Both the position numbers and the translations under genes were made by a program. Of a stretch of 64,000 nucleotides of DNA, positions 19,929 through 36,813 are shown piece by piece; within the stretch, counting starts at the first letter, position 1, and each line of letters opens with the position of its first letter. Source of the stretch: Cognatundibacterium squillarum (GTDB lineage: Bacteria > Pseudomonadota > Gammaproteobacteria > Burkholderiales > Burkholderiaceae_D); assembly GCF_014652435.1 (NCBI RefSeq), contig NZ_BMYU01000001.1, positions 496,001-560,000 on the forward strand, in the 5' to 3' direction. Under the pieces are notes generated by a model. It saw only the letters and a list, made by a program, of their open reading frames with translations, did not search any database and was not told where the DNA came from.

Positions 19929-20137
19929 TCAGCAAAGCTGCGTTCCGACGGCCATCAGGCAGCTTTTCGCTGCCCGCCACCGGACTGCATCGTCTATTTA
20001 CAAATTGACACAAAATATACCCGATGCGACCTGCTTACACCAGCCTGCGCATCGCCTATCCTGCTGCCAGACCATCAGCAGCTGACGCAAGCGCGTAGTA
20101 AAACTCCGTCACAAACTGTTATACTGCCGCATTAACG

Positions 20138-20157
20138 CGGGCGACTCTGGTCGCCCG
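20138..20157 (+). other. GC-rich hairpin in the 5' leader of the DUF1186 gene
   Basis: Eight-bp arms CGGGCGAC and GTCGCCCG with a TCTG loop, 12-17 bases downstream of a TATACT -10-like box (20120-20125) and 25 bases before the start codon. No T-run follows, so it may stabilise the leader RNA or act in regulation rather than termination. Confidence 0.4.
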
Positions 20158-20181
20158 TTCGCATTTACCGGAATCTCTGAC

Positions 20182-21081
20182 ATGACATCTACCCCGATCT
20201 GGCCTGCGCTGGCCGAGCAACTCCGCTTCCAGACTGCTCCCTTCCCGGCGGACGCAATTCAGGCAATTGCCGCGCACAAAGAGGCTGTGATCCCCGAACT
20301 GATTCAGGTATTACAGGACACTGCCCGCGATCCGTCTGCCGCATCCGATGGCAATTACATGCTGCACCTTTACGCCATGCATTTGCTGGCTGCCTGGCGC
20401 GTCACGGATGCGTATGCTGCGATGGTGGCAATTGGCGGCTTTGGCGATGAGCAGCTGGAAATGATCATGGGCGATGTGATTACCGAAACCTATGGCCGTT
20501 GTCTGGCATCGGTTTGCGATGGCAATACCGCGCCGCTGCAAGCCATGTTTGAAAACAATGGCATTTCAGTCTGGTCACGCACCGCTGCGCTGATCGCATG
20601 GCAGGTCCGCGTCATCAGCGGCGATAACGAGCGTGCGCCATTGCTGCAATTCCTGCAGGAACAAGGTGAAAAGCTCGCGAATCAGCGCCGCCACGAGAGC
20701 GAAGGCGATGCGATTCTGCTGGAAACCATCGTCGATGTTGCCACCGCGCTATGCGCCAACGAAATGCTGGATCAGATCAACAGCTGGTTTGATGAAAACC
20801 TGCTGGACCCGCAACTGAGTGACCGCGACTGGCTGAACGAACATATCCACGCCGATTTTCAGGCCAGCCGTTTGCTGGAACTGCAGCATGGCAAAAGCTA
20901 TATCAGCGACGTGGAAAAAGAAATGGGCTGGTGGCCGGTGTTTCAGGAACCGGAAAAACAAACTTTCCGCAAAACCTATACCCAGCACACAATACGCAAA
21001 GAAGCCAAAATCGGACGCAATGATCCCTGCCCTTGCGGCAGCGGTAAAAAATATAAAAAGTGCCACGGCAGCGACGTTTAA
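20182..21081 (+). CDS. DUF1186 protein with C-terminal SEC-C zinc motif
   Basis: A 299-residue soluble protein. Residues about 1-240 are alpha-helical, HEAT-like, and match DUF1186 ([39 protein letters not shown]-type helices). The last 25 residues form a SEC-C motif, [19 protein letters not shown], a C-C-C-H zinc site also found at the SecA C-terminus, where it contacts SecB and ribosomes. Function is unknown; proteins of this type may be ribosome- or chaperone-associated. It has its own leader hairpin and a strong terminator. A second SEC-C protein is encoded at 43228. Confidence 0.85.
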
Positions 21082-21112
21082 TACGGGCATCACGATACGC
21101 TGGCAAGTAAAG

Positions 21113-21152
21113 AAAACGGATATCCGCCAACGCTGGCCGATATCCGTTTTTG
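21113..21152 (+). terminator. Intrinsic terminator after the DUF1186 gene
   Basis: Twelve-bp arms AAAACGGATATC and GATATCCGTTTT around a 14-base loop, followed by more T. The A-run on the left could also terminate minus-strand transcription. Confidence 0.88.
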
Positions 21153-21681
21153 TTTTCGTTTATTTTTTACGATCTTCTGATACCGCCATCAAATTCCATC
21201 ACCGGCATGAAGATTTCGCCATCTGAATTACACACTTAAGGAATCTGTGATTCCTGATACTCCCAAAAACAGCAAGCACTTAGACGTTTTTCTCAAATCA
21301 CACAGACTATTGTGGTTATCCCCAATTCATAATGCGGCAAGGCGGTGGCATGATGCACACGCATCATGCTGTTTCTGCTCTCTGTGCAAATCGTCTTCAT
21401 CTGCGTGCGCAGCCGGCAAAGCCAACGGTCAACCGGTCTCAGCTTTCACGCTGTAAGTCAGGTTCACCAGCCAAATGCATGCCCCCACCGGGCGACAAAC
21501 TGATCGGACCACAAGTCTGAACTGAATTTTCCGTGACATCCGGTTAACGCAGGATGGCATGGCTCCTGTTTTATTTTTTGTGATCGCATATCCCGCGAGG
21601 GCTGCGCTCATCCCGAAAAAAGCAAGCCACAACAATGACACTGGCAGACGCAGGATGATCTGCTACTAAGGAGAACTATTG
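21153..21681. other. Long leader/intergenic region before the carboxylate symporter
   Basis: About 530 bp without a supportable gene. It holds the 9-bp inverted repeat at 21348-21369 and the strong ribosome binding site AAGGAGAA (21668-21675) of the symporter. No convincing sigma-70 or sigma-54 promoter was identified by eye. Confidence 0.5.
21348..21369. promoter_or_regulatory. Perfect 9-bp inverted repeat upstream of the symporter gene
   Basis: Arms GCATGATGC and GCATCATGC separated by ACAC, about 310 bp before the start. No T-run follows, so a terminator is unlikely. The symmetry suggests a dimeric regulator site or an RNA hairpin in a long leader. Confidence 0.4.
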
Positions 21682-22962
21682 ATGAAGAAAAAATCCAATA
21701 CGCTGATGATTTTCATCGCGATGATCGCCGGTATCGGCGTCGGCTATGCCTGCCACGAAACCTGGGCTGGCACCAAATTCGCGACCGAACTCTCCGGTTA
21801 CTTCTCTATCCTGACAGACATCTTCCTGCGACTGATCAAAATGATCATCGCACTGCTGGTGTTTTCAACGCTGTCGGTTGGTATTGCCAATCTCGGCGAC
21901 ACCAAAACCGTCGGCCGTATCGGTGTGAAATCCATGGGCTGGTTTGTGATTGCATCGCTGGTCTCGTTGTCTATCGGTATGCTGCTGTCGAATGCGCTGC
22001 AACTCGGTACCAATCTCGGTCTGCCGCTGCCGGATGTGCACGCTGCCACCAATCTGAAAACCAGTGCATTTAATCTGAAAGATTTCGTCGGCCATCTGTT
22101 CCCGAAATCGCCGATTGAAGCGATGGCGAATAATGAAATCCTGCAAATCGTCGTGTTCTCGCTGTTCTTCGGCTCTGCACTGGCAGCACTGGGTGAATCC
22201 GGTAAGAAACTGACAGCAGTGATTGATGAACTGGCGCACGTGATGCTGAAAATCACCGGTTCCATCATGACACTCGCACCAGTGGCGGTATTTGCTGCGA
22301 TGGCTTCCGTCATCACCACACAAGGTCTGGGCGTACTGGTAACGTTCGCGAAGTTCATGGCAGGTTTCTACTTCGGTCTGGCGATTCTGTGGGCGCTGCT
22401 GATTGCGGCGGGCTTTATGTTCATCGGCAAATCCATCTTCCGTCTGATGGCGCTGATCCGCGAACCATTCCTGCTGGCATTCTCTACTGCAAGTTCTGAA
22501 GCGGCTTACCCGAAAATTCTGGACGCACTGGATAAATTCGGCGTACAACGCAAAATCTCCAGCTTCGTTCTGCCGATGGGTTACTCCTTCAATCTGGATG
22601 GCTCGATGATGTACTGCACCTTCGCGGTTCTGTTCATCGCACAGGCTTACGGTATCGAACTGTCGGTCAGCACCCAAATCACCATGCTGCTGTTGCTGAT
22701 GGTGACATCCAAAGGTATGGCCGGTGTGCCACGCGCTTCGCTGGTCGTAATCGCTGCAACACTGAATCAGTTCAACATTCCTGAAGCAGGCTTGCTGCTG
22801 ATCATGGGTGTGGACCAATTCCTGGATATGGGCCGCTCTGCAACCAATGCGGTTGGTAACTCGATTGCCGCTGCCGTAATCGCGAAATGGGAAAACGGTA
22901 TCGACCCGAACGCCAATGTCGCCAATATTGAAAACGCGAAATCCGGCAAAAAAGTCGCCTGA
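21682..22962 (+). CDS. Dicarboxylate/amino acid:cation symporter (DAACS family)
   Basis: A 426-residue membrane transporter of the DctA/GltP (SLC1-like) fold, with eight transmembrane helices and two re-entrant hairpins. Signatures include the HP1 Ser region FSTASSEAAYPKI, the helix 7 motif NLDGSMMY (an NMDG-type cation site) and GVDQFLDMGRSATNAVGN in helix 8, with the substrate-binding Asp and Arg. The Arg/Asp pattern favours acidic substrates such as C4-dicarboxylates or glutamate/aspartate. ATG 21682 with AAGGAGAA six bases upstream is preferred to the adjacent TTG. It is transcribed alone. The sequence differs from enterobacterial DctA, so no symbol is given. Confidence 0.92.
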   Translation: MKKKSNTLMIFIAMIAGIGVGYACHETWAGTKFATELSGYFSILTDIFLRLIKMIIALLVFSTLSVGIANLGDTKTVGRIGVKSMGWFVIASLVSLSIGMLLSNALQLGTNLGLPLPDVHAATNLKTSAFNLKDFVGHLFPKSPIEAMANNEILQIVVFSLFFGSALAALGESGKKLTAVIDELAHVMLKITGSIMTLAPVAVFAAMASVITTQGLGVLVTFAKFMAGFYFGLAILWALLIAAGFMFIGKSIFRLMALIREPFLLAFSTASSEAAYPKILDALDKFGVQRKISSFVLPMGYSFNLDGSMMYCTFAVLFIAQAYGIELSVSTQITMLLLLMVTSKGMAGVPRASLVVIAATLNQFNIPEAGLLLIMGVDQFLDMGRSATNAVGNSIAAAVIAKWENGIDPNANVANIENAKSGKKVA

Positions 22963-23010
22963 TTTCAACACCCCCTGCCTGCCGTTTCGCTCCTGAGGCG
23001 GCAACAGACA

Positions 23011-23050
23011 ACGCCCCGGTTTTCTCTGAAAGCCGGGGCGTTTTGTTTTG
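23011..23050. terminator. Bidirectional intrinsic terminator
   Basis: Arms CGCCCCGG and CCGGGGCG with a loop of about 12 bases, followed by TTTTGTTTT. It lies between the convergent symporter gene and the 505-residue unknown gene. Confidence 0.88.
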
Positions 23051-23073
23051 ATACTGAGGAGGTCAACAACGCA

Positions 23074-24591
23074 TTAATTTTCCGTTGTCGGTAATTGCGG
23101 CGGCAATGACCAGACAGCCGTCGTCTGCCATTGTGTCTGAGGTTCATTCACATTGGTGGTGACGATACACGCTGTGCCGTGGGTTCCGTCGGTACCGAGC
23201 GACATCACCACATCAGTGAACAGGGCGGGATATGCGAGGATGTACATCAGCGGAACATAAATCACGCTATGGCGTCCATGCCCGTTATAGATCACATTGT
23301 TATTTCCCTGAATTGTCAGGCAATCGCCGCTCGCATTAGTCAATGACAAACCACCGAAAGCCGTCAGCGGCACAGGGTTAAACGGGGTAAAACCGGTCAC
23401 GAATGTTTTACCGATTACGCCCTCCAGTTTTACCAGTGCATTCGTTCGCGCATCATAACTACGGGTCAGTGTCAGCTTCACGCCAAATTCCGGTATGGTC
23501 AGTTCGCCGTCTTTGTAACTCATATTGCTATTAATACGATCAAAGTAGCAGCCTTGCGATTGCACACCGTCGAAAGACCAGCTGATCAGCACCATATAAC
23601 AATCGGCAGAATGCCCCGGAAGCCAGGTGGAATACTGCGCCTGAATCGAAACAAAACCTGCTGGCGTGCAGCGATCCGGGCCGTTTGCATAGGTCAGCGG
23701 ATAGTAGCCACTGAAATTGACCAGATCGATATCCGGCTCGCCAAGAATATTCGGCCAAATTGTCGGCGCATCAGGAATCGTAAGTAAAGAACGTACAGGA
23801 TTTGCACCGCCGTCACACATATCATTACACGCGAAACCTTTGTTACCCGATGTTCCCATAATCAGATGCACATAACTTTCCAGCTGCGGGAACAGGAAGT
23901 AGTACATATTCAGGTTATAAACAAAGGCTGGCACTGCCATTAACACCCCATCGTTAGAACCAAAATCGTAACGCAACTGATAATTCGCCCCGATTTCCAT
24001 GACTTCGACAGGCGCGCTGCCGGAGGTGGATGCATAGTATTTTCCGGCGAACAGGGTTGCCTGAATCGGATTATTATAAGTCTGGCCAGTCACTGTCACT
24101 TCTATGCTGCCCGGCAAAGTAATCGTTCCGGTACAAGTGGCGACAGCACCGTATGTGTCAGCGTTACGCACAAAACTCAGCTCGATTCTCAGACCATATT
24201 TGTTCGTTTGTACCAGAGTCGTTCCGTCAAATGCAGAATCAAACCGGAACCGATTCGCATGCTTTCCATCCAGCGAAACAATCAGCGTTACATCCAGATA
24301 CGGCTCACTCAGCGCAGGTGTCACAACCATGTTGGCATCAATCGCGAAGAAAGCACCCGTCGCCACCGATTCCGATGCGGCATCCGGACCGGAAGCACTC
24401 AGCGTGTAATAGCCATTCCACAGCATCAGCGCCTCGCGCGCGGCTTTACCCTGTGCAGTGTTATTTTCTGGCGTTACACCGGGCACACTCAGCGTTTGCA
24501 ACAACTTTTGATAATAATCGCGTGATTCTGCCGATGGCTTTGTGTGACGTGTTGCATGCATCATGCTGACTACCTGTGGTTCCTGACTCAT
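23074..24591 (-). CDS. Unknown 505-residue protein made of two divergent domain copies
   Basis: I do not recognise a family. The start at 24591 (MSQEPQVVSMMHATRHTK) is supported by GGAG at correct spacing; the longer upstream reading lacks one. No signal peptide or long hydrophobic helix is evident. After an N-terminal segment of about 55 residues, an all-beta pattern occurs twice. The first copy runs about 58-285 (NGYYTLSASGPD ... GAFFAID ... LIVSLDGK ... IMGTSGNKGFACND). The second runs about 293-500 (SGYYPLTYANGPD ... GFVSIQA ... ISWSFDG ... SLGTDGTHGTAC). The parallel landmarks are offset by 220-235 residues, so the protein arose by internal duplication. It lies downstream of the RADAR genes on the same strand, separated by a dispersed repeat, so co-function is possible but unproven. 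Confidence 0.75.
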   Translation of the reverse strand: MSQEPQVVSMMHATRHTKPSAESRDYYQKLLQTLSVPGVTPENNTAQGKAAREALMLWNGYYTLSASGPDAASESVATGAFFAIDANMVVTPALSEPYLDVTLIVSLDGKHANRFRFDSAFDGTTLVQTNKYGLRIELSFVRNADTYGAVATCTGTITLPGSIEVTVTGQTYNNPIQATLFAGKYYASTSGSAPVEVMEIGANYQLRYDFGSNDGVLMAVPAFVYNLNMYYFLFPQLESYVHLIMGTSGNKGFACNDMCDGGANPVRSLLTIPDAPTIWPNILGEPDIDLVNFSGYYPLTYANGPDRCTPAGFVSIQAQYSTWLPGHSADCYMVLISWSFDGVQSQGCYFDRINSNMSYKDGELTIPEFGVKLTLTRSYDARTNALVKLEGVIGKTFVTGFTPFNPVPLTAFGGLSLTNASGDCLTIQGNNNVIYNGHGRHSVIYVPLMYILAYPALFTDVVMSLGTDGTHGTACIVTTNVNEPQTQWQTTAVWSLPPQLPTTEN

Positions 24592-24819
24592 ACCGATCTC
24601 CGAATTGACGTGTTGAAAGAGGATTGCAAACTGAATGGCAGTACAAACACCAGACGCCACACCCGCTGGCTGGCGCATGGTCAGCACCCAATTGCAAAGA
24701 GCGTGCCTCCCGCATTAATCACCAGCGCAACACACAAAAAGCACAGAAATCCACACCCCGAAGCAAGCCGCCTTACACGTAATCGCATGATTTAACACCG
24801 CAGAACACGTCAACAGCCC

Positions 24820-24950
24820 CAAATGCGGTGTTCAGCACAGCGATCCGGCGGTCGTCGGCAAAAAGTCCGGGCTTCCGGAAATGCGAAATGCCGATAACTG
24901 CACAACGTTCACAGGATTCATCTGCAAATTCAGCGACCAAAACAAAACGC
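24820..24950 (+). repeat. Dispersed intergenic repeat, copy B
   Basis: Carries AAATGCGG, TTCAGCACAGCGATC, then CGGTCGTCGGCAAAAAGTCC, the perfect hairpin TCCGG-GCTT-CCGGA, and CGATAACTGCACAA. A further shared segment with GCGACCAAA (to about 24950) also occurs in copy E. It lies between the 505-residue gene and the SLATT gene. Confidence 0.85.
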
Positions 24951-25017
24951 GGACAATTGCCCGCGTTTGCATTGCTCAATCACTGCACCGGCAACAGGCC
25001 GGTTCCGTGATGTTATA

Positions 25018-25716
25018 TCAGCCTGCCTTACCCTCTTCTGCCGCCTTCGGCACCGAGGTTTTCATGCCAGCTTTAAAACTGCTGATCCATTGTTCGGTTT
25101 CGGTCTGAATGATGTTGTAGCGTGCGCTGGAAACGCGAATCAGTTCGGTGAGTTCTTTGGCCAGATCCGGCTTACCGGCACCGGCTACCTGCAAAGCCAG
25201 CCAGTTCAGTTCAAACTCTTCGGACAAACGCTGCAAGCGCTGCCTTGCCATCTCAAAACGCATCCATGCATCGGCATTACCGTAGTAGCGCTCGTAGGCA
25301 TACATGGTTGCCGTCACCACCATCATGACCGAGGTGGCACTGGCCGGAATCGTCCATGTTCCCAGATTGAACGGCGTGATCACCGGAAGCACCGCAGAAA
25401 CACCACCAAATCCGATCATCGATCCCCGAATCAGACGCGCCCAGAACGCCCGCTTCTGCTTAGCGCCGTCATACCATGCAATATCTGCCTCAATGGATTT
25501 CATCAGCTTATCCCTGGCATCCACAATACTTTGCGCCGCATCCTGACTAAACGGCATCGCCTGCGCCAGCACTGCGGGATCGGCCGCCACCTGATACGGC
25601 TGCTCCGACGCATCCGTCGCCAGCGCTGCCGGTGGTGCGATCGCATCAGCGCCGGCATCACCGGTATTATCTGAAGCCGATGGCGTCGCTGCCAGTTGCG
25701 GATCTTGTTCTGCCAT
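25018..25716 (-). CDS. rdrD: SLATT/DUF4231 two-helix membrane protein, probable RADAR accessory RdrD
   Basis: A 232-residue protein. Residues 1-55 are rich in Ala, Asp and Pro and probably disordered. A helix ending in IEADIAWYDGAKQKRAFWARLIRG leads into two transmembrane segments (about 96-114 and 121-140), then cytosolic helices with YERYYGNADAWMRFEMARQRLQRL. This order of helix, WYD motif, two membrane spans and a coiled C-terminal part is the SLATT (DUF4231) pattern. SLATT proteins accompany nucleotide-signalling and anti-phage systems and are thought to act as pore-forming or membrane-disrupting effectors. In a subset of RADAR loci a SLATT gene (rdrD) follows rdrA-rdrB, as here, 87 bp downstream on the same strand. 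The family call is firm; the symbol rests on context. Confidence 0.8.
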   Translation of the reverse strand: MAEQDPQLAATPSASDNTGDAGADAIAPPAALATDASEQPYQVAADPAVLAQAMPFSQDAAQSIVDARDKLMKSIEADIAWYDGAKQKRAFWARLIRGSMIGFGGVSAVLPVITPFNLGTWTIPASATSVMMVVTATMYAYERYYGNADAWMRFEMARQRLQRLSEEFELNWLALQVAGAGKPDLAKELTELIRVSSARYNIIQTETEQWISSFKAGMKTSVPKAAEEGKAG

Positions 25717-25803
25717 GTGATTTACTCCTGTTGTTATTGTTAATGAGATAGCGTGCTGCAGATTCTATCCGTTTGCGTTGACTGCAATATGAAACTTCGG
25801 CGG

Positions 25804-28782
25804 TCAGTGTGCTTTCCGCCACACGGGTACATGCTTTTGCCTGAACTCGTCCATCCCCGCCTGACGCAGTTTTTTCACCCATGCTTCAGCCAGAGCCTCT
25901 TCGTCACCACGATCCAGTGCGGCCTCTTTCAGTAAGCGGAATTCCGTGCGCAACGTCGTTGGCATAATGCCGGGGTCATCGGTATTGATACATACCGTCA
26001 TTGGCTTTTTTCTCAGGCCGAAAACATTGAATTTGCCGCCTGCATTCAAATCCGCTTTCGCAACCGGATACCAGCGGAATACCGGATGCTCTTTAAAATC
26101 TTCCAGTCTGGCGATATAGGTATTCGAAGTCAGATTCACTTCTATCATCAGACCCAGATCAGCGTACTCCTGCATTTTGACATCCTGCAGCGCGTGGATG
26201 AATTTCAGTTCGTCGGAATGATAGAAATCCGTCAGCATGTTTAATGCATCGGGTTCAGCCACAGCAGGCAACGCCGTTCCGCGACGCAAACTGCTGACGC
26301 GCACTTTCAGCAAACCGTCTTTCGTGAAATCGCAATAACCAAACGGAGGAGGTTTCGGCAACGCGGGGCGAACCTTGATAGCGGTCTTTTCCTCTTTTTG
26401 TGCTTTCGAATCTTTTTTCCCGGCTTTACCGGAAGCTGCCTTTCCAGAGGTTTTTTCGTCACCGTTATTCTGACCGGAAGTTTCCGGTTGCCAAGATGGC
26501 TTCTGCACTTCCAGCCAGCGCGCCCGCTGCAAAAACAGTTTGCCTGCTTTGTTATCGGACTGCTTCAGCAGATCAAGGTCGGGCAAGGCGGCCAGCGTTG
26601 CATCGTCCTGCACGCCGGATTGCTGCCAGCGTAAAAACTGCCAGTAGCAATTTCGGCGCAGCTTCCATGCGGTGTACAAATCGTCGATAAGGATAGATTC
26701 CGTCGCCGATTTTTCCTGACAATCCTTGCGCAACTGGCGCGTTTCAAGCCTTTGCTTCAGCGGGTGTTCCCATGCAAAGCACACCGGATGCAGCCACGGC
26801 ACATAAGGCAGCAAGCGGCGTATGCGTTTTTCCAAATGGTCTTTTACCTTTGCACACCACGGCAATCGTTCCGCCAGCGCGCCAGCTTCATGCCAGGCCC
26901 ACACCAGATTATCGACATGCTCATCCACCGGCAGCAACGCATCGCCATGCCGCGCCAGCCAGCTTTCTGCATCCACACCCAGCGCCAGCGCATGACCTAA
27001 GCGATCACCTTTTTTCATCGCACAAAACTGCACGGTTTCATCCAGATGCCGCAAGCCGGACAAAGGATGAGCGTAATCCTCGCCCGCATGAATACTGAAA
27101 TGCCAGCCCTTCAGAAGATCAGCACTTTCTGATGCAGCACCGACTAAGGCTTGCAAACTGCGTTCTGTCTGCCGCGCCACAAACGCTTGCCGCAACCAGC
27201 GTAATGCCGGTGCATACACTTCAATCCGCACCAGATTTTCATCGCCAGCCACATCCAGCCCGCGTATCCACGCGGCCGGACGCAATGTCTGTTGCTGTTC
27301 ATCAGACAGTTGAGAACTCAGTCCCAGCAATTCCGGCCTGTCCCAGCCGGACAAACTAAAACACTGCTGCAGCAAGGCTCTGGCTTCATGCCAGACTTTT
27401 TCGGGGTGATGCTGAAATGCCGGAGTGCGCAAAAAATGAATGCAGAAATGCCAGCGCTCCATCAACGCGCGATACGCATTCGCCTGCGCCGCTGTTGGCG
27501 GCACAAATCGGCTTGCAACTGCATCACCGTAAGCGCTGTCGGGCTGCACAGCCTTTTCCATTTGCTTCAGCCACAGGGCTAAGTCTTTGGGATTGAGCTT
27601 GCTGCGCGTTACTTTCAGCTCTGCCACATCTTTGGCATTCTGAAACAACACCTGCGCGGCATTGAATTGATTCGGCGCTGATTTTCCCCAGCGCAAAGGT
27701 TCATCATAATACTGCACGAAGCGGCTCAGGCCCTGCCCGTCCATAATCACTTCGCGCCGCAGACGATTAATCCGGTTCAGAAAATACAGCGTCAGCGTAC
27801 GGAAACGCTCGCAGCAGTGCGGATCCTGATAATGCCACCACAGCCAGATCAGCAAATACAGCCACGCTTTCGACACATCACCGGCCTGCATATATAACGC
27901 AACCTGCTTGCGCAACCACGCCGGATTCACCACCGATTCATCCGCGGGTTGCTGCGCAATACCGTACCAGTCCACCTGCATTTCTGTCTGAAACAACCAC
28001 GCCTGCCCGATGGAATACTGAATCAGTGCATTGATACGCTGATGATGCTGATCCTTCGTAACAGTTTGCTGTTGCGTTTTTTTCGTTTCAGCGGATGGCA
28101 GCAACCAGTCTGGCAGCTGCAACAAGGCTGCCAGCAAACGCTGTAACTCCTTTATCAATTCCTGCTGCGCATGCTGCTTTAACTGCCCCTTTGCCGGATG
28201 CAACACCGCCAGCATCAGCGCCAGCCCGCTGCCATACACACCACCCAGATGCACGTGATTTTCCGCAACCGCAGCAGCATTTTTTTGGACGGGCGGACTA
28301 AACAAAGGCTGCAAAGCATCAATCAGTTCTGACGCTTTACTGACTTCCTCAAATTTTTCAGTCTTCGTTTGATCGCGAAAATCTTTCGCTAACTGCCACG
28401 CCGCCACATACGCCGGATCAAGCCGTGCGCACAGACGCACAAAATCCGGCTCAGTCTCTTTGCGGTAATGCAAGCCGCCATTGGTCGTATCAAAAAGCTC
28501 TGCAGCCAACTGATCCAGCGCTTTGAACTCCGGTGTGACAAGCATTTCTGACGGCCAGATTAATTCCACTGCGTGAGCGATTTCGTTCAGGCGGAAGCGA
28601 CGGGGCCATTCGTTATCAACTTCTTGGGCAAGAAGTTTTCGACACTCACCCGAACAACCAAAAATATTTAATTTATCTTTTAGTTCAAAATGAAGTAAAT
28701 TGGTTTTTACCATCCCAGAAATCAAATCAGAGCAAAATATCACAAACTTAACAGAATCAACTACATTAGATATCTTCTTCAT
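25804..28782 (-). CDS. rdrB: RADAR adenosine deaminase RdrB
   Basis: A 992-residue divergent adenosine deaminase. All metal-site and catalytic motifs of the ADA family are visible: HVHLGG (H176, H178), HAGED (H565, catalytic E568), GDRLGH (H597), EVNLTSN (equivalent of the SxPxSN motif) and INTDDPG (D935, D936). The large spacing between the first and second motifs reflects family-specific insertions. A Lys/Glu/Ser-rich low-complexity stretch lies at about 765-800. RdrB of RADAR systems forms large shells with RdrA and converts adenosine or ATP species to inosine during phage infection, stopping growth. Its ATG lies inside the rdrA 3' end (17-bp overlap), indicating coupled translation. The first 60 codons are AT-rich like rdrA, and the rest has host-like composition. 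It is longer than the roughly 800-residue RdrB proteins first described. Confidence 0.88.
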   Translation of the reverse strand: MKKISNVVDSVKFVIFCSDLISGMVKTNLLHFELKDKLNIFGCSGECRKLLAQEVDNEWPRRFRLNEIAHAVELIWPSEMLVTPEFKALDQLAAELFDTTNGGLHYRKETEPDFVRLCARLDPAYVAAWQLAKDFRDQTKTEKFEEVSKASELIDALQPLFSPPVQKNAAAVAENHVHLGGVYGSGLALMLAVLHPAKGQLKQHAQQELIKELQRLLAALLQLPDWLLPSAETKKTQQQTVTKDQHHQRINALIQYSIGQAWLFQTEMQVDWYGIAQQPADESVVNPAWLRKQVALYMQAGDVSKAWLYLLIWLWWHYQDPHCCERFRTLTLYFLNRINRLRREVIMDGQGLSRFVQYYDEPLRWGKSAPNQFNAAQVLFQNAKDVAELKVTRSKLNPKDLALWLKQMEKAVQPDSAYGDAVASRFVPPTAAQANAYRALMERWHFCIHFLRTPAFQHHPEKVWHEARALLQQCFSLSGWDRPELLGLSSQLSDEQQQTLRPAAWIRGLDVAGDENLVRIEVYAPALRWLRQAFVARQTERSLQALVGAASESADLLKGWHFSIHAGEDYAHPLSGLRHLDETVQFCAMKKGDRLGHALALGVDAESWLARHGDALLPVDEHVDNLVWAWHEAGALAERLPWCAKVKDHLEKRIRRLLPYVPWLHPVCFAWEHPLKQRLETRQLRKDCQEKSATESILIDDLYTAWKLRRNCYWQFLRWQQSGVQDDATLAALPDLDLLKQSDNKAGKLFLQRARWLEVQKPSWQPETSGQNNGDEKTSGKAASGKAGKKDSKAQKEEKTAIKVRPALPKPPPFGYCDFTKDGLLKVRVSSLRRGTALPAVAEPDALNMLTDFYHSDELKFIHALQDVKMQEYADLGLMIEVNLTSNTYIARLEDFKEHPVFRWYPVAKADLNAGGKFNVFGLRKKPMTVCINTDDPGIMPTTLRTEFRLLKEAALDRGDEEALAEAWVKKLRQAGMDEFRQKHVPVWRKAH

Positions 28783-31135
28783 GGTAAGTCGGTGTATTCA
28801 CATTCAGCCAATTACGAATTGGGTGCGTGTGAAAAATTTCATATGCGTACCCCTTTGATTGCCCACTCGAAGTTTGAATATTCGCGCCATAGATTTCAGA
28901 AAAGACAAATCCTTCACCAACGTAGCCAAATCCAGAACCATTTGATATTTCAGAATGATTTTTTACCTCGTAACTACCAATCGCCGCGCAAAATGCATTA
29001 AATGCTCTCAAACCCAATTCAGCTACATCAGTTACGTCATTAACTTCCTTAAATCGCCCCCAATCACTTTCATACTCCGCCAACTGAGTAAAAAACTTAT
29101 TCATTACACGATATATTAATAAAGCACTTGGCTGATCTGGCCAAAATTCGTTATATTTAGATCGCCACTCGATTAATTGACTCGAATATTCCGCAACAAT
29201 TTCTTCCCAATGAGGAAGTTCACTTAAAACGCGGTAATCTTCCCTATGCACGTCATTTGAAGAGTTAAATTTTGAAATCCTATCTTCCTGAAATTCAGGA
29301 AAACCAATTACTTTTGTTTTGGAGAACGCAACCAATGAATAAAAAGGAACCTCATTCAATACATTCCTAACCGCATCAACACAAACATTCTTAAATAGCC
29401 CAAGAACTAAAATCTCAAAAAGTCGCCCAAAATAAACAAAAGATCCATGATCTTCCTGTAAATACACTTGATTATGACTGAGAAGCTTACTGACAAAAAT
29501 TTTATTTTCACTGTTTCCAAACAAAGCACCAGGAATTGGAACACCTTTATCTGGAGGAGGATACGATAAGACTGTCTTTTCCGGCAAATTATTCAACCAA
29601 AATTCATTAAAAATAATCCCATCTAAATGCTCCCTCCACTGCACCCCAAGCCCTTCAACAATACATCCATCTTTAAATGCATTTAATTGATCCAAAGGCT
29701 GAAACAAAGCCACTTCGAAAACAGAGGTTTCGGGCACAAAAGGCTTCAACATATTTCGATCAAAATCAAGCCAATTAGCCTGTGCCAAATAAATCAACAG
29801 CAAGTCCTTTTGATAGTCTCCCGATTGCAATACATCAATCAACTTCAATCTTATTTTTTTCTCAAAATTTAAATATTCCTCTCTTTTTTCCAACCTAAGA
29901 ATCTCGCACAAGTAAACAATATTCTCTTCTTTCAAATCAAAATTCGCAGAAAGAAACCTATCCAGCTCAATCAACTCAGACTTAACCGCAGAAATTAGCT
30001 GAGCAAGAGACCTAACACTAGAGAAAGAAAATTTAATCCAACTACTCTCAAAATCATTCAACCAAAAATTATGAATCCTATTTAACAAATTAAAGAATTC
30101 GCTAAGAGAAATTGAGAGTGGCGACCCATCTTTACTCAAATAAATCTTTGGATTAGCAATGTGTTGCTTGAGACTTTGAACTAAATTTCTCCTTGCAACC
30201 GGCAGAAGTTTCCTTTCATATTCATCAGCCAGATTTTTTGCACGCAGTTTTGCATCATCAACCTCAACCGTGCGTGCCTTAGCAGTAATTCCTTCGAAAA
30301 AATTCCGCCAGATCACTTCGTGAAACAAATCAAGATCACCGGAAATGATGGGGACTACATAAGGTGAAGCCAAATAACGCCTCACAACTTCCAGATTATT
30401 AAATGCGTGTTGCAATGACGTATCCACATCATCAATTGGCAACACGATCAGTCTCTTACCGGTGATTTTGAGTGCCTCGTAAAACAACTTGTGCACTTCA
30501 TCGCTGACGCTGTGATTGCCAATAAAAGCACGCAACTTATCCATGCCAAATTCTGATTTCTGCTTCTGAGTCCCCTCCAAAGCACTTCCAAGTGCCTGCA
30601 ATCGCGCATAAAAAGTTTTGGATTTTTCGTAATCTTGCGTTGCGTCCTTCACTTCTTTATTTCGAAGCAAGGCCGCGACAATAATGTTGAGGAAAAGGTC
30701 GTCGTCATTCTCCAGCAGAGTGGGATCAACGGGTTTTAGAATCAATAAAACTTTTGATAACGGGAGTATTTCAGGGTTGTTTCCTGACCTATTTATTTCA
30801 ACTAGTTCGTCCTTCATAAAGGTCGGCAAATTGACGAGAATCGTACTTTTTCCAGTACCCCTGCCACCGTCCAGCAAAATGGCGTTATGGGCACGGTGTT
30901 CATCCAGATCGAGAATTGCTTCAACTGAATTAGGCAAATCATCTTTTTTCTCGATGTTCTCTTTATCTTTACTAAACGAATCGCTTGTTTTATTGACGCT
31001 TTCTTTAAGAAATCCCGCAATCCGCTGATATACCGGTCGCGCCAGCAGATATTCCGGCTTTGCTTGCTTTGCCTGTTCGCCCTGATCAATCGGAAAGTAA
31101 ATGATGTCTTTATCTTCGCTCGCCTTCGTCGCCAT
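28766..31135 (-). CDS. rdrA: RADAR ATPase RdrA (KAP/AAA-like)
   Basis: A 789-residue P-loop ATPase. Walker A GGRGTGKST occupies 90-98 and Walker B LPIDDVD has D235, D236 and D238. SPYVVPIISGDLDLFHEVIW shortly after fits a STAND/KAP-like sensor region. The C-terminal half is long, helical and without recognisable motifs. The start at 31135 (MATKASEDKDII) is the likeliest of three nearby ATGs; no strong ribosome binding site is visible. A TATAGT -10-like box lies about 34 bases upstream (31174-31169), but no well-spaced -35. Genetic context identifies it as RdrA: it is immediately followed, with overlap, by an RdrB-type deaminase and then a SLATT gene. Known role: RdrA assembles as a ring and docks on the RdrB shell, activating editing or deamination on infection. 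Codons from about 280 to the end are conspicuously AT-rich. Confidence 0.85.
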   Translation of the reverse strand: MATKASEDKDIIYFPIDQGEQAKQAKPEYLLARPVYQRIAGFLKESVNKTSDSFSKDKENIEKKDDLPNSVEAILDLDEHRAHNAILLDGGRGTGKSTILVNLPTFMKDELVEINRSGNNPEILPLSKVLLILKPVDPTLLENDDDLFLNIIVAALLRNKEVKDATQDYEKSKTFYARLQALGSALEGTQKQKSEFGMDKLRAFIGNHSVSDEVHKLFYEALKITGKRLIVLPIDDVDTSLQHAFNNLEVVRRYLASPYVVPIISGDLDLFHEVIWRNFFEGITAKARTVEVDDAKLRAKNLADEYERKLLPVARRNLVQSLKQHIANPKIYLSKDGSPLSISLSEFFNLLNRIHNFWLNDFESSWIKFSFSSVRSLAQLISAVKSELIELDRFLSANFDLKEENIVYLCEILRLEKREEYLNFEKKIRLKLIDVLQSGDYQKDLLLIYLAQANWLDFDRNMLKPFVPETSVFEVALFQPLDQLNAFKDGCIVEGLGVQWREHLDGIIFNEFWLNNLPEKTVLSYPPPDKGVPIPGALFGNSENKIFVSKLLSHNQVYLQEDHGSFVYFGRLFEILVLGLFKNVCVDAVRNVLNEVPFYSLVAFSKTKVIGFPEFQEDRISKFNSSNDVHREDYRVLSELPHWEEIVAEYSSQLIEWRSKYNEFWPDQPSALLIYRVMNKFFTQLAEYESDWGRFKEVNDVTDVAELGLRAFNAFCAAIGSYEVKNHSEISNGSGFGYVGEGFVFSEIYGANIQTSSGQSKGYAYEIFHTHPIRNWLNVNTPTYHEEDI

Positions 31136-31279
31136 ATCGCCCGCCCGTGCAGATTGCATAAAACAACAACTATAAAACAGCACTTATCAGATTGGTTAGT
31201 CAAATCACTAAGACTGCTCAAAATCGTAGAAAATAGCGCACCGGCGCAAAAATGCCGGAGAACAGAACAGGAGACGACG

Positions 31280-32191
31280 ATGAGACTTTGGCAGCAAATG
31301 GGTGTGGCGGCGGCTTTGTCGCTGGCGGTACTGGGGCAGGTGCAGGCGCAGACGGCGGGTGGTTCGGCTGCTGCAGCAAGTGCGGCGCAGGCTTTACCGG
31401 CGAGTAAGCCGTATGTGATTGCGCAGACTTACACGCTGCAATCGCAGGTGCTGAATGAGCAGCGCGAGCTGAACATAATGCTGCCGGAGGGGTATCACGA
31501 ACATCCGGAGCTGCGTTATCCGGTGGTGTATTTGCTGGATGGCGGGCAGCATGAAGATTTCACGCATATGGCGGGTGCGGTGCAGTATGCGAGTTTTTCG
31601 TGGGTGCAGCGTTTACCGCCGGTGATTCTGGTGGGGATTGCGAATACGGACCGTAAGCGCGATATGACGTTTAAAGCCTCGCCAAAATTCGTGTGGCCGA
31701 AGTGGATGCATGCGTACACGGATGCCTATAAAAACGCCGGTGGTTCGGATGCGTTTATCCGTTATATCGAAACTGAGGTGCAACCGTATGTGCAGCAGCA
31801 TTTCCGTACCGGGCCGGACAAAATGCTGGTCGGGCAATCGCTGGCGGCTTTGCTGGCAACGGAGATTCTGCTGAAGAAGCCTGCGCTGTTTAATCAGTAT
31901 GTGATGATGAGTCCGAGCTTGTGGTGGGACAATCAGTCGCTGCTGAAGCAAGCGCCGCAGTTGTTGCGAAACATGCCTGCCGCGCCGATGAAGGTGTATC
32001 TGGCGGTGGGCAATGAAGGGCCGGAAATGGTGAACGATGCGCGTGCGCTGGCGGCGCTGATCCGCAAGCATAAGCCGCGCAATACGCAATTTGTGTTTGA
32101 GTATTTGCCGAAAGAAGATCACGGCACGATTTTGCATCCGGCAACGCTGAATGCCTTTGCGCATTTCTTTCCGCGTCCGCCGGAAAAATAA
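31280..32191 (+). CDS. Exported alpha/beta-hydrolase esterase (Fes/esterase D family)
   Basis: A 303-residue protein of the putative esterase family PF00756. The start at 31280 has AGGAG seven bases upstream and gives a signal peptide (MRLWQQMGVAAALSLAVLGQVQA), followed by an Ala/Ser-rich linker. The fold is marked by RYPVVYLLDGGQH, PPVILVGIANTDRKRDMT, a nucleophile elbow VGQSLAALLA (Gln in place of the more usual His or Leu before the Ser), YVMMSPSLWWD and the C-terminal DHGTILHPA, which would supply the catalytic His. Relatives hydrolyse siderophore or S-formylglutathione esters or have unknown substrates. Codon choice here is richer in G/C-ending codons than in neighbouring genes. It is transcribed divergently from rdrA. 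Confidence 0.82.
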   Translation: MRLWQQMGVAAALSLAVLGQVQAQTAGGSAAAASAAQALPASKPYVIAQTYTLQSQVLNEQRELNIMLPEGYHEHPELRYPVVYLLDGGQHEDFTHMAGAVQYASFSWVQRLPPVILVGIANTDRKRDMTFKASPKFVWPKWMHAYTDAYKNAGGSDAFIRYIETEVQPYVQQHFRTGPDKMLVGQSLAALLATEILLKKPALFNQYVMMSPSLWWDNQSLLKQAPQLLRNMPAAPMKVYLAVGNEGPEMVNDARALAALIRKHKPRNTQFVFEYLPKEDHGTILHPATLNAFAHFFPRPPEK

Positions 32192-32218
32192 ACTTCTTCC
32201 GCTTTAATGAAGTGCATC

Positions 32219-32256
32219 ACAGCCAGCCTTGCTTTGCAGCGCTGGCTGTTTTATTT
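32219..32256 (+). terminator. Intrinsic terminator after the esterase
   Basis: Nine-bp arms ACAGCCAGC and GCTGGCTGT, then TTTATTT. Confidence 0.85.
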
Positions 32257-32362
32257 GATTAGGTTTGGTTTTGAATTCCCAGATTCAATCCGCTCGGCAT
32301 GGTCACGGCTGGCATCCTACACCTTGCAGGCGCAACGTGGCGCATCGAGATTGCCCGCAGGC

Positions 32363-32472
32363 CGCTGAAAATGCCTGAAAACGGCTAATTTGCGGAGTTC
32401 TGCATAGCGATCCGGCGGTCGTCGGCAGAAAGTCTGGCTGGCCGGAAATCACAAATGCGGATTTCTGCACAA
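32363..32472 (+). repeat. Dispersed intergenic repeat, copy C
   Basis: Carries GCTGAAAATGCC, TTTGCGGAGTTCTGCATAGC, the core CGGTCGTCGGCAGAAAGTC and ATTTCTGCACAAA. The hairpin after the core is TCTGG-CTGG-CCGGA, so the stem survives through a G-U pair. It lies between the convergent esterase and hrpA genes, each with its own terminator. Confidence 0.82.
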
Positions 32473-32545
32473 AATTATCTGGTGGCGCTTGCGAAGCCGC
32501 AGCCGCCAGCCTGCTATTACAGCCTTGTTTCTGCTGCCACAAAGC

Positions 32546-32580
32546 AAAACGCCCGCAGATAATTCTCTGCGAGCGTTTTT
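32546..32580. terminator. Bidirectional intrinsic terminator at the end of hrpA
   Basis: Imperfect arms of about 13 bp (AAAACGC-CGCAGA against TCTGCG-GCGTTTT, one bulged base on each side), with a T-run on either strand. It lies 40 bp beyond the hrpA stop. Confidence 0.85.
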
Positions 32581-32619
32581 GCGTTGTTTTGCGTTTTTCG
32601 CGGGTTACGAAGCGGACGA

Positions 32620-35600
32620 TCAGCGTTGCAGGCTTTCCCAGACTTTTTGCAAACGCTTCACCGATACCGGCATCGGCGTTTTGAGTTCCTGTGCAAACAG
32701 GGACACGCGCAATTCTTCCAGCATCCAGCGGAATTCAATCAGCTTAGGATCGGCATCCGCACCGTGGCGGCGCGGGTGGCGCAGCCAGGCTTGTGCAACG
32801 CTGTTCCATTCTGCCATTTGCTTCTGATCGCGCGCCGGATCAGCGCGCAGCTTGTCGATACGCACTGCCATCGCTTTCAGATAACGCGGAAAATGCGCGA
32901 GCTGCACATAATCGTTTTCCGCGATAAAGCGTTTATGCACCAGTTGCTGCAACTGCGTTTGCATGTCTGCGGCTGCGGCACTGTGTGCTTTAACGGACTG
33001 GATTTTTTTCGGCAGCGCATGGTACTCGCTGAGAATTAATCCTGCCAGTCGCGCAATTTCATTCGCCAGCAAATTCAGACGCGCCTTGCCTTCTTCGCGA
33101 CGCTGACGGAATTCGCCTTCGTTCGATGGCATACCATTTTGCAGGCAGGCGCGTTCCAGCGCGGTCTGAATAATCTGATCGCGCAATTCTTCGTGCGAAC
33201 CCAGTGCCATAAACTGCATGCCCATTTGCTGCATGCCAGGAATATTTTTTTCTAAGAACTTGACCTGTTCTTTGAGCTGCAATGCAAACAAACGGCGCAA
33301 GCCGGTGCGGTGGATACGCGCTGCCTCATCCGGATCATCAAATACTTCAATCTGGCAATGGGTTTGCTGATCCACCAGCGCCGGATAACCGATCAGGGTT
33401 TGTTTGCCCTGCTGCACTTCCAGCAGTTCCGGCAATTCACCAAAGGTCCAGTCGGTCAGTTTTTCCTGCTGATACACCACGGGCGCAGCACCGCCCTTGC
33501 CTTGCGGTCTGGCGCTGGCTTGCGGCACGGCGGCGCTGCGGCTTTGCGCGCTGACGGCTTCGTCTGCATCATTACCGCCTTCCAGCAGGGCCAGTTTTTC
33601 TGCGCTGGCGATTTTCTGGAAGCTTTCACGCGCCTGTCCGCCCAGTTCTGCGCGCAGGCTGGCGAGATTACGACCCATATCCAGCTGGCGTCCGTGCTCA
33701 TCCACCACTTTGAAATTCATTGCCAGATGGGCTGGCAAGGTTTCAAATTTGAAGTCGGTGCTTTTGCACAGCAAGCCGGTTTTTTCGCGGATATCAGCGA
33801 TCAGCACATCCAGAAAAATCCCTTTCCCGAAATCATTACGCTCACAGAATCCGGCGGCGTATTCCGGCAAAGGTACGCAGTGGCGGCGGATTTTTTGCGG
33901 CAGCGATTTCAGTAACAGCTGCACTTTTTCTTTCAGCATGCCCGGCACCAGCCATTCGCCACGCTCTGCCGATACCTGATTCAGCAGATACAGCGGCACG
34001 CTCATAGTCACACCGTCACGCGGGCTGCCCGGTTCAAAGTGATAACTGAGCTGCACCGCCACGCCGGACACCTGCATGGTTTTCGGGAAGAAATCTGTGG
34101 TGATGCCTGCAGCCTCGTGGCGCATCAGATCATCTTTCACCAAATACAGCATTTTCGGCGTGGTGCGCGTGGCTTCGCGGTGCCATTGCTCAAACTCCAC
34201 CGCATTACAAATGCCGGGCGGAATCAGCTTGTCGTAAAACGCGACGATCAGTTCATCATCCACCAGCACGTCTAAACGGCGTGACTTGTGTTCAAGATTT
34301 TCAATCTCGCGCACCAGTTGCTGGTTATGTGCAAAGAATGGCAGACGGGTTTCAAACTCGCCGTTCACCAGTGCTTCGCGGATAAAGATGGTACGCGCTT
34401 CATCCGGATTGATATTGCCGAAGTTGATACGGCGCTGGCTGTACACCACCAGCCCGTACAGCGTGGCGCGTTCATGTGCGACAACTTGACCGGCTTTCTT
34501 TTCCCAGCGCGGATCGCCGTAAGATTTTTTCAGCAAATGCGCGCCGGTTTTTTCCAGCCATTCCGGCTGTATCTGCGCAATGCAGCGACCGTACAAACGC
34601 GAGGTATCCACCAGTTCCGCACACATAATCCAGCGACCGGCTTTCTTACTCAGATGCGAACCGGGCCAGATATGAAACTTAATGCCGCGCGCGCCGAGGT
34701 AATGGCTGTCTTCATCCGATTTATAACCAATGTTACCGAGCAAACCCGTCAGCAGCGCCAGATGCAATTGCTCGTAGGTGGCTGGCTTCTCATTCATGCG
34801 CCAGCCCTGCTCTTTCACAATCGTCAGCAATTGCGAATGCACTTCGCGCCATTCGCGCAGGCGCAGCTGATTCACAAAATTGCTGCGGCAGTTATCCTGC
34901 AACTGGCGATTGGTTTTTTTATGTTCTATCGCGTCTTCAAACCATTTCCACAGTTTCAGATACGATAAAAATTCCGATTTCTCATCGGCAAATTTTTTAT
35001 GCGCCTGATCTGCAGCTGCCTGCGCTTCCAGCGGACGTTCACGCGGGTCCTGTACCGACAAGGCGGCGGCGATGATCAGCACTTCCTGCAGGGCTTGCTG
35101 ATCGCGCGCTGCCAGAATCATGCGGCCAACGCGCGGATCTAATGGCAGCTTGGCGAGCTGACGACCAACCGCAGTCAGCTGATTGGTTTCATCCATCGCG
35201 CCCAGTTCCTGCAGCAGCTGATAACCGTCAGCAATGGCGCGGCCCAGCGGTGGCTCGATGAACGGGAAGCTTTCTACGTCAGTCAGGCGCAGCGATTTCA
35301 TGCGCAGAATGACAGATGCCAGCGAAGAACGCAGAATTTCCGGATCGGTAAAACGTGCGCGCTGCTGAAACTCTTTTTCATCGTACAAACGAATACAGAC
35401 ACCGGACGAAACACGGCCGCAACGACCAGCACGCTGATTCGCCGCCGATTGCGCAATCGATTCGATTTGTAATTGCTCGACCTTATTGCGGTAGCTGTAA
35501 CGCTTTACCCGCGCCAGACCGGTATCCACCACAAAGCGTATGCCGGGTACCGTCAGCGAGGTCTCAGCGACGTTGGTCGCCAGCACAATACGGCGTGCAT

Positions 35601-36813
35601 TCGATGGTTTGAAAATGCGTTCCTGCTCCTGCGCCGATAAACGCGCAAACAGCGGCAGAATTTCCACATGCGGCGGATGGTGTTTGCGTAAAGCTTCCGC
35701 TGCGTCGCGGATTTCGCGCTCGCCCGGCAGGAAGATCAGCACATCACCGGAACCCAAACGGCACAGTTCATCCACCGCGTCGGTGATTGCGGTCATCAGA
35801 TCGCGGTCTTTATCTTTTTCTGTGTCCTGCACCGGACGGTAACGGATTTCCACCGGATATAAACGACCGGACACTTCAATCACCGGTGCCGGTTTTTGCT
35901 GCGCATCGCAGAAATGGCGCGCGAAGCGGTCGGCATCAATGGTGGCGGACGTGATGATAATTTTCAGATCCGGACGTTTCGGCAGAATCTGCTTCAGATA
36001 GCCGAGCAGAAAATCAATGTTCAGGCTGCGTTCATGCGCTTCGTCGATGATGATGGTGTCGTACTGACGCAGCAAAGGATCGGTCTGGGTTTCTGCCAGC
36101 AGAATACCGTCGGTCATCAGCTTGACGCAGGCACCTTCGTTCAGCGTATCGGTAAAACGCACTTTATAACCGACATGCTCCCCCAGTGGCGAGCCGAGTT
36201 CCTGCGCAATCCGTTTTGCAGTGGACGATGCAGCGATACGGCGCGGCTGGGTGTGGCCGATCATGCCGGTGCTGCCACGTCCAACTTCCAGACAAATTTT
36301 CGGCAGCTGTGTGGTTTTACCGGAACCGGTTTCACCGCAAACAATCACCACCTGATTTGCAATCAGTGCATTTGCAATATCCTCGCGCTTGCCGGATACC
36401 GGCAATTCTTCAGGGAAAGTGATTTCCGGTAAAGGATTGCGTTTCGCCAGAAACGGATGCACCTGCCCTGCAGTGTTTTTAGCGCCGGATTGATTCGGCT
36501 TCCGGCTGGCAACTTTGCTGTTTTGTTGTGCTCTAGCTGGTGCTGCCGGCGATTTCTGCATTTCTGCGGGTTTTCGCGGCACACCCTGACGGCTGCCCTG
36601 ATTACGCTGTGTATCCTGCGTGCCATTGCGGGTTTGCGTTGCCGCCTGCGGCCTACGTGCCTGCGCATCACCACTGTTCAGTGACGGCGTGTTTATTTGC
36701 TGCTTTTGCTGTTGTTCTTTTTGTTCGATCAGCTGCGCGCGTAAATCGCGCAATCCGGCCAGTCCGTCCAGTTTGGCGGCGCTGCCGGAAGTAGATGTTT
36801 TTTTCTGTGTCAT
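32620..36813 (-). CDS. hrpA: ATP-dependent RNA helicase HrpA
   Basis: A 1397-residue DEAH-box helicase. After a low-complexity Gln/Lys/Ala-rich N-terminal tail (about 1-120) come Walker A GETGSGKT (160-167), DEAH (257-260), ITSATIDADRFARHF (motif III) and NQRAGRCGR (motif VI). The HA2/OB region and the long HrpA-specific C-terminal DUF3418-type domain follow. HrpA in E. coli is linked to RNA processing and to resolving stalled or colliding ribosomes. Length is slightly above the usual 1300 because of the N-terminal tail. It is monocistronic. Confidence 0.95.
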   Translation of the reverse strand: MTQKKTSTSGSAAKLDGLAGLRDLRAQLIEQKEQQQKQQINTPSLNSGDAQARRPQAATQTRNGTQDTQRNQGSRQGVPRKPAEMQKSPAAPARAQQNSKVASRKPNQSGAKNTAGQVHPFLAKRNPLPEITFPEELPVSGKREDIANALIANQVVIVCGETGSGKTTQLPKICLEVGRGSTGMIGHTQPRRIAASSTAKRIAQELGSPLGEHVGYKVRFTDTLNEGACVKLMTDGILLAETQTDPLLRQYDTIIIDEAHERSLNIDFLLGYLKQILPKRPDLKIIITSATIDADRFARHFCDAQQKPAPVIEVSGRLYPVEIRYRPVQDTEKDKDRDLMTAITDAVDELCRLGSGDVLIFLPGEREIRDAAEALRKHHPPHVEILPLFARLSAQEQERIFKPSNARRIVLATNVAETSLTVPGIRFVVDTGLARVKRYSYRNKVEQLQIESIAQSAANQRAGRCGRVSSGVCIRLYDEKEFQQRARFTDPEILRSSLASVILRMKSLRLTDVESFPFIEPPLGRAIADGYQLLQELGAMDETNQLTAVGRQLAKLPLDPRVGRMILAARDQQALQEVLIIAAALSVQDPRERPLEAQAAADQAHKKFADEKSEFLSYLKLWKWFEDAIEHKKTNRQLQDNCRSNFVNQLRLREWREVHSQLLTIVKEQGWRMNEKPATYEQLHLALLTGLLGNIGYKSDEDSHYLGARGIKFHIWPGSHLSKKAGRWIMCAELVDTSRLYGRCIAQIQPEWLEKTGAHLLKKSYGDPRWEKKAGQVVAHERATLYGLVVYSQRRINFGNINPDEARTIFIREALVNGEFETRLPFFAHNQQLVREIENLEHKSRRLDVLVDDELIVAFYDKLIPPGICNAVEFEQWHREATRTTPKMLYLVKDDLMRHEAAGITTDFFPKTMQVSGVAVQLSYHFEPGSPRDGVTMSVPLYLLNQVSAERGEWLVPGMLKEKVQLLLKSLPQKIRRHCVPLPEYAAGFCERNDFGKGIFLDVLIADIREKTGLLCKSTDFKFETLPAHLAMNFKVVDEHGRQLDMGRNLASLRAELGGQARESFQKIASAEKLALLEGGNDADEAVSAQSRSAAVPQASARPQGKGGAAPVVYQQEKLTDWTFGELPELLEVQQGKQTLIGYPALVDQQTHCQIEVFDDPDEAARIHRTGLRRLFALQLKEQVKFLEKNIPGMQQMGMQFMALGSHEELRDQIIQTALERACLQNGMPSNEGEFRQRREEGKARLNLLANEIARLAGLILSEYHALPKKIQSVKAHSAAAADMQTQLQQLVHKRFIAENDYVQLAHFPRYLKAMAVRIDKLRADPARDQKQMAEWNSVAQAWLRHPRRHGADADPKLIEFRWMLEELRVSLFAQELKTPMPVSVKRLQKVWESLQR

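Follow-up and report, generated by a model that had tools for sequence, protein, structure and literature searches.

The accessible part of the structural report on E. coli RADAR (PMC9994260) describes RdrB as converting ATP and dATP to ITP and dITP, with RdrA required in vivo and stimulatory in vitro. An RdrA heptamer sits on an RdrB dodecamer and touches it through a crown, an insertion in the ATPase domain (mutations at residues 150-162); the C-lobe of RdrA is proposed there as a possible sensor of an unknown phage signal, conservation of RdrA is limited outside the ATPase site, and the N-terminal extension of RdrB is part of the 2-fold interface of the dodecamer. The SLATT-associated RADAR of Gao et al. 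(2020), as it appears in the accessible part of a commentary (PMC7699616), comprises RdrA, RdrB and a SLATT membrane protein. Here we describe a locus of the latter composition in a 64,000-nucleotide stretch of Cognatundibacterium squillarum (contig NZ_BMYU01000001.1, positions 496,001 to 560,000), hereafter called the window. The system itself is of a known kind; the new part is the exchange of a block of RdrA, on which no paper turned up in our literature searches and which goes unmentioned in the accessible part of the commentary. We consider it probable that this is a SLATT-associated chromosomal RADAR in which RdrA, chiefly its C-lobe together with the start of rdrB, has undergone block replacement in related species, while the flanking genes and RdrB tracked the species.

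The window holds a three-gene RADAR operon on the minus strand. The first gene, rdrA (28766..31135), runs from an ATG at 31135 to a stop at 28766 and encodes an AAA+ ATPase of 789 residues, the suspected sensor and activator; with a GTG further upstream as the start, the frame would reach 31183. The second, rdrB (25804..28782), encodes an adenosine deaminase of 992 residues, the RADAR effector, and the third (25018..25716) a SLATT protein of 232 residues, the presumed membrane partner, which both Pfam and NCBIfam assign to SLATT_2. Open reading frame (ORF) calls place rdrA and rdrB in the tandem order of RADAR with an overlap of 17 bp (28766..28782, minus strand), bearing out a preliminary description of this DNA as three consecutive minus-strand genes of which the first two overlap.

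RdrB matched the PADLOC RdrB profile with an E value of 7e-203 and the NCBIfam RdrB model with 828 bits (cut-off, 800), and a search of PDB sequences matched it solely to RADAR RdrB (8fnv and 8fnw, E 4.6e-20). Models of metabolic adenosine deaminases gave at most 26.3 bits against cut-offs of at least 216; the result named beforehand as refuting, a deaminase that groups with these enzymes, was thus not obtained. Aligned to PDB 8fnv, H565, E568 and H597 lie opposite E. coli H498, E501 and H530, which the accessible part of PMC9994260 names as zinc or catalytic residues. H176 and H178, taken as the counterparts of E. coli H152 and H154, are invariant in an alignment of seven proteins, as are S886-N887 and D935-D936, in agreement with the 992-residue deaminase with intact motifs that had been described. 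RdrB is indeed longer than described members, but length alone does not mark the divergent subtype that had been suggested as possible: in the alignment the extra length is mostly a lysine- and glutamate-rich linker missing from the closest relatives.

RdrA carries the motifs GGRGTGKST (Walker A), LPIDDVD (Walker B) and ISGDLD (sensor-1 region) and matched the PADLOC RdrA profile at E 4.5e-114. With the NCBIfam RdrA model it reached 518 bits, below the curated cut-off of 600 (for comparison, RdrA of U. curvum scored 757 bits and that of a second RADAR in the genome of the window 847). The KAP part of the earlier label "AAA/KAP-like" is weak, the match to Pfam KAP_NTPase (E 0.011) lying under its cut-off. 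A search of PDB sequences returned RADAR RdrA (8hr7 and 8fnt, E about 3e-10); two further hits, at E 0.5-0.6, were unrelated. AlphaFold was useless for RdrA without an alignment (predicted local distance difference test score, pLDDT, 32.7) and gave a model with pLDDT 79.9 and a predicted template-modelling score (pTM) of 0.80 from a 31-sequence alignment. A Foldseek search with this model made the comparison with solved structures that had been proposed: all 20 PDB matches at E ≤ 0.001 were RADAR RdrA entries, matched over most of the entry length with TM-scores of 0.28-0.52.

RADAR with a SLATT partner, as first suggested, is supported by the PADLOC RdrA and RdrB profiles, the NCBIfam RdrB and SLATT_2 scores and the RdrA fold. 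With E. coli RADAR (PDB 8fnt, 8fnv, 8fnw and 8hr7-8hrb) the locus shares the RdrA-RdrB pair, the AAA+ core, the fold of RdrA over its length and the zinc and catalytic residues of RdrB. It differs in that the two RdrA proteins are about 15% identical in the fold alignment, that RdrB of the window is longer, and that SLATT goes unmentioned in the main text of PMC9994260. From SLATT-associated RADAR as presented in PMC7699616 it differs, besides the block exchange, in a SLATT protein, a candidate for the RADAR accessory RdrD, that matched none of the PADLOC families at E ≤ 1.

The order rdrA-rdrB-SLATT recurs in U. curvum (L021), U. crateris (L022) and U. rugosum (L023), and in Psychromonas hadalis and two Pseudomonas (L055-L057); all six loci fall with the window in a nine-row clade of a 29-row RdrB tree. 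RdrB of L021-L023 is 52% identical to that of the window and RdrB of L055-L057 less so, and the RdrA C-lobes are mostly near 30%. Among the three Undibacterium species RdrB is 94.6-95.0% identical, the SLATT protein 86-90% and RdrA 44-51%. When RdrA of U. curvum is compared with that of U. crateris, identity is 95.7% in the ATPase half and 31.8% in the C-lobe, and the step can be located in the DNA. Identity in sliding windows of 150 columns, with gaps counted as mismatches, is 81-98% across the ATPase half of rdrA and the genes that precede it, drops to 23-51% from about position 6410 of L021 (60% in the step window at 6337) to about 8140, and is again 88-95% from 8215, which is codon 18 of rdrB; blastn alignments halt at 6386 and resume at 8235. 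In U. rugosum almost the whole of rdrA, starting at about codon 25, diverges from the other two species, and similarity returns at the same point of rdrB as for that pair. Most of the DNA of the flanks and of rdrB is 90-98% identical among the three species, and the dissimilar block of U. curvum and U. crateris reaches from just past the ATPase core to roughly codon 20-25 of rdrB.

Four-fold degenerate sites show the same mosaic. Differences among the three species amount to 0.09-0.16 in the flanking genes and in rdrB from codon 46 on, and to 0.61-0.67 in the C-lobe, even at identical residues; in the ATPase half they are 0.15 between U. curvum and U. crateris and 0.66-0.74 against U. rugosum. 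The flanks and rdrB, with their low divergence, have therefore tracked the species, unlike the block in RdrA. The trees of the parts conflict accordingly. In the RdrB tree the three species are grouped tightly with the window outside, and in the C-lobe tree the window joins U. rugosum (Shimodaira-Hasegawa-like approximate likelihood-ratio test, SH-aLRT, 99) with the other two apart on long branches. The approximately unbiased (AU) test rejected a clade of the three species for the C-lobe (p 0.016) and a clade of the window with U. rugosum for RdrB (p 0.00065). These trees are of 29 chosen loci, from quick searches without bootstrap; L055 was left out of the tree of the ATPase half, where L024 is 18% filled, and the clades submitted to the AU test were picked after the trees had been seen. 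On the evidence of these alignments the pattern is one of block replacement and not of fast mutation.

The left edge of the block in U. curvum and U. crateris lies within a conserved segment, LA.EYQRK.LP..RR, after sensor 1; in the window this segment, LADEYERKLLPVARR, is at 30188..30232 on the minus strand, and the equivalent of the whole block, comprising the C-lobe and the start of rdrB, maps approximately to 28650..30232 of that strand. Sharp steps in the pair L059/L075, from enterobacteria, and in L063 compared with L020, L060 and L067 lie farther along, directly behind the sensor-2 helix. The right edge is placed by these comparisons in the first codons of rdrB: of the 19 listed pairs with RdrB at least 70% identical, 15 have less similarity in the first 45 residues of RdrB than in the block that follows, and two of the other four pairs are non-comparable fragments. 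Maximum-likelihood segmentation of G+C content over 20000-36900 of the window returned one low block (log-likelihood gains 82.7 and 23.1), at 28608..31235, which takes in all of rdrA and the first 58 codons of rdrB, with 38.4% G+C between neighbours of 52.7% and 54.9%; its edge in rdrB lies near the right edge of the block in the three species. The C-lobe of the window has 36% G+C and its RdrB 53%, a contrast equalled by the three species and surpassed by L100, a distant relative on a scaffold of Acidicaldus organivorans with runs of N elsewhere. There the G+C content of an open rdrA-like gene (L100:2753-5128) drops abruptly from 62-67% to 31-36% for the second half and is 63-71% beyond the gene.

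A scan of genome contigs with a single RdrB protein found nothing, and an alignment-based scan yielded 60 loci. Six duplicates were dropped (L051, L053, L054, L058, L074 and L083, of L023, L022, L024, L021, L025 and L028, respectively), and the distinct set holds 65 RdrB and 62 RdrA rows, of which 59 RdrA rows entered the G+C comparison after a length filter. Where two loci have RdrB at least 50% identical, conservation of the C-lobe falls short of that of the ATPase half in 62 of 63 pairs, the exception being L108/L109; these are 63 of 1685 pairs passing the length filters, and they share loci and are hence non-independent. Median C-lobe identity is 28-34% in the bins with RdrB 30-50% identical, and the three Undibacterium species, with RdrB at 95%, have C-lobes of 29-35%. 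Other close pairs are milder, with C-lobes of 57-79% at RdrB 87-93%. Block exchange is well supported in the three species and is suggested more widely. The C-lobes of the L063 and L059 types have a stretch in common after sensor 2; a donor relationship between them was considered and dropped, as overall identity singles out no donor.

Several observations weigh against this interpretation. Four-fold divergence in the SLATT gene is raised to an intermediate 0.28-0.32; a clade of the three species was not rejected for the ATPase half (AU test, p 0.057); and the C-lobe tree has long branches. As U. rugosum differs over nearly the whole of rdrA, the block has no single left edge, and the extreme contrast between RdrB and C-lobe occurs in the three species only, in which the shared context is confined to the symporter side, hrpA not having been found on the far side of rdrA in the stretches fetched. 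In 55 of 59 loci the C-lobe has a higher A+T content than RdrB, and for this reason the G+C step of the window supports replacement there and is by itself no proof of recent import. For one RADAR type of E. coli, RdrA and RdrB are alike (at least 99% identity) in 21 of 21 full-length copies, without switching between strains, and exchange is therefore not frequent everywhere. Spare cassettes were not found: searches of 43 Undibacterium genomes with two C-lobes, the U. crateris and the U. curvum one, hit only RADAR loci, as did RdrA of the window in five Undibacterium genomes. Plasmids held no relative of the window C-lobe, and no donor was thus identified.

That a metabolic adenosine deaminase happens to lie beside an unrelated KAP ATPase is practically out of the question; Pfam A_deaminase and KAP_NTPase do give weak matches, under their cut-offs, and the RdrA and RdrB profiles and the RdrA fold rule this candidate out. 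We also think it very unlikely that this is an ordinary SLATT-RADAR whose C-lobe merely mutates faster, with no exchange of blocks. A C-lobe below the ATPase half in nearly all close pairs agrees with such a history, as does the limited conservation outside the ATPase site of RdrA given in the accessible part of PMC9994260. It is at odds with the sharp edges in U. curvum and U. crateris, where 88-98% DNA identity on both sides encloses 23-51%, with four-fold differences of 0.61-0.67 at identical residues against 0.09-0.16 elsewhere, and with the conflict among the part trees.

Two further explanations accept the exchange and account for it otherwise. Old RdrA alleles might be maintained in Undibacterium and reshuffled among its species rather than imported from other genera, which is possible but on balance unlikely: the grouping of the U. 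rugosum C-lobe with that of the window (SH-aLRT 99) implies at least one allele class common within the genus, and no outside donor was found, yet the C-lobes are as different as in loci with RdrB only 30-50% identical, the blocks are AT-rich for the genome, and one genome per species was examined. It is similarly doubtful, though conceivable, that the block is exchanged for some other reason, namely escape from phage-coded inhibitors of RADAR or matching of RdrA assembly to the N-terminus of RdrB. The first rdrB codons do move with the block, and in the accessible part of PMC9994260 the N-terminal extension of RdrB lies in the 2-fold interface of the dodecamer; against this, the contact between RdrA and RdrB is made by the ATPase-domain crown, which is unexchanged between U. 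curvum and U. crateris, and no inhibitor data were found.

Type I restriction HsdS and bacterial NLR-like sensors combine a fixed effector with a variable recognition part. The likeness to exchange in such systems has its bounds: here the system is RADAR, the block runs into the next gene, and no recombinase or spare copies were found in the Undibacterium genomes searched. For RADAR, we give about even weight to the proposal that the C-lobe and the first rdrB codons form an exchangeable recognition cassette, swapped by homologous recombination while the chassis of ATPase, deaminase and SLATT stays at one chromosomal site. RdrA would detect infection and activate RdrB, which would turn (d)ATP into (d)ITP, and the SLATT protein, to judge solely from its family name, which stands for a 2TM (two-transmembrane) effector domain, may act with RdrB at the membrane. 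The C-lobe would carry the recognition of the trigger, and its exchange, presumably by homologous recombination in the conserved segments at the block edges, would alter the phage signal detected and keep the contact between crown and RdrB. As the crown is an insertion in the ATPase domain, exchange of the C-lobe by its position leaves the crown in place. The mosaic fits an exchange of the presumed sensing lobe with effector and contact surface kept, and is no proof of it; the link between C-lobe and phage specificity is one that we infer, and escape from inhibitors or assembly may give the same pattern.

The SLATT protein scored 40.1 bits with Pfam SLATT_2 (cut-off, 25) and 71 with NCBIfam SLATT_2 (cut-off, 40). 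Its membership in the family that had been suggested is upheld; the two membrane helices are less clear, as both stretches are moderately hydrophobic (19-residue Kyte-Doolittle means of 1.63 and 1.20) and unflagged at a threshold of 1.7. A terminator-like hairpin with a 10-pair stem and a T-rich tail lies 3′ of its gene (24945..24968, minus strand), a consensus match only in a region where 16 such hairpins were found and 8.6 expected. A SLATT-like gene 3′ of rdrB, detected with a profile built for this analysis, is present in 8 of 65 loci (the window, L021, L022, L023, L052, L055, L056 and L057), and all five that were scanned with Pfam (the window, L021, L055, L056 and L057) pass the SLATT_2 cut-off. 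Seven of the eight (L052 is absent from the tree) fall in the nine-row RdrB clade (98), and downstream SLATT looks like a trait of this one RADAR clade; in its remaining two rows, L065 and L024, no SLATT was detected, the contig of L024 stopping 925 bp past rdrB. Weak upstream SLATT matches in L084 and L085 were unconfirmed by Pfam. In the SLATT gene of the three species (L021:11065-11400 and its counterparts in L022 and L023) four-fold divergence is about twice that of rdrB and the low DNA identity is mostly in the 5′ part, perhaps a smaller second exchange. A contig of 4030 bases from an Undibacterium metagenome-assembled genome (L033/L052) carries rdrB-SLATT, with one in-frame TAA in the RdrB match and no RdrA found there. 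Small predicted membrane proteins of no confident family adjoin rdrAB downstream or upstream in other taxa (L059:9586-10323; L075:9628-10365, outside the family scan; L063:9540-10394; L082:3348-4079; L090:3234-4052) and are possible further RADAR accessories.

The operon lies between a symporter gene (21679-22962) and hrpA (32620-36813), 9.7 kb apart in the window (22963..32619). In G276, a relative with no RdrB match, the symporter and hrpA alignments are about 240 bp apart; the operon therefore lies in a stretch that is inserted here or was lost in G276, and the two neighbours fit the setting among housekeeping genes given in the preliminary description. No tRNA marks the site in the window, and Rfam had no matches in the window at gathering thresholds. 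An ORF in the same stretch (23074-24687, 506 residues searched) had no match in Pfam or NCBIfam (E ≤ 0.1) or in PADLOC (E ≤ 0.01), and recD, recB and recC are found at 10899-19928, about 5 kb from the operon. The rdrA-rdrB-SLATT loci of U. curvum, U. crateris and U. rugosum adjoin the same symporter gene; in U. crateris a 948-residue gene with DUF1444 and Sel1 matches (L022:12679-15525), which the other two species do not have, separates SLATT from the symporter.

The second RADAR of this genome (L020:7908-13243) is about 467 kb from the operon of the window. Its RdrA (847 bits) and RdrB (1039 bits) both exceed the NCBIfam cut-offs, no SLATT was found beside it, and its C-lobe is AT-richer than its own RdrB (43% against 54% G+C). 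RdrB matches occur in 5 of 43 Undibacterium genomes, 10 of 294 genomes in a family sample and 9 of 399 in an order sample; seven plasmid records hold relatives, all below 60% identity, and none were found in phages or viral contigs. Two further E. coli genomes keep only the last 30% of rdrB. In E. coli ET826 (L111:6249-7767) this remnant is next to an IS1 transposase gene and a type I restriction operon.

These natural loci, whose RdrB and flanks are almost the same, in one pair together with an almost identical ATPase half, and whose C-lobes are only about 30% identical, amount to a ready-made experiment on sensing by RADAR. Should they differ in phage range or in escape mutations, the C-lobe would be implicated, and if the proposed exchange is true, RADAR would join the defence systems that change their recognition part by recombination.

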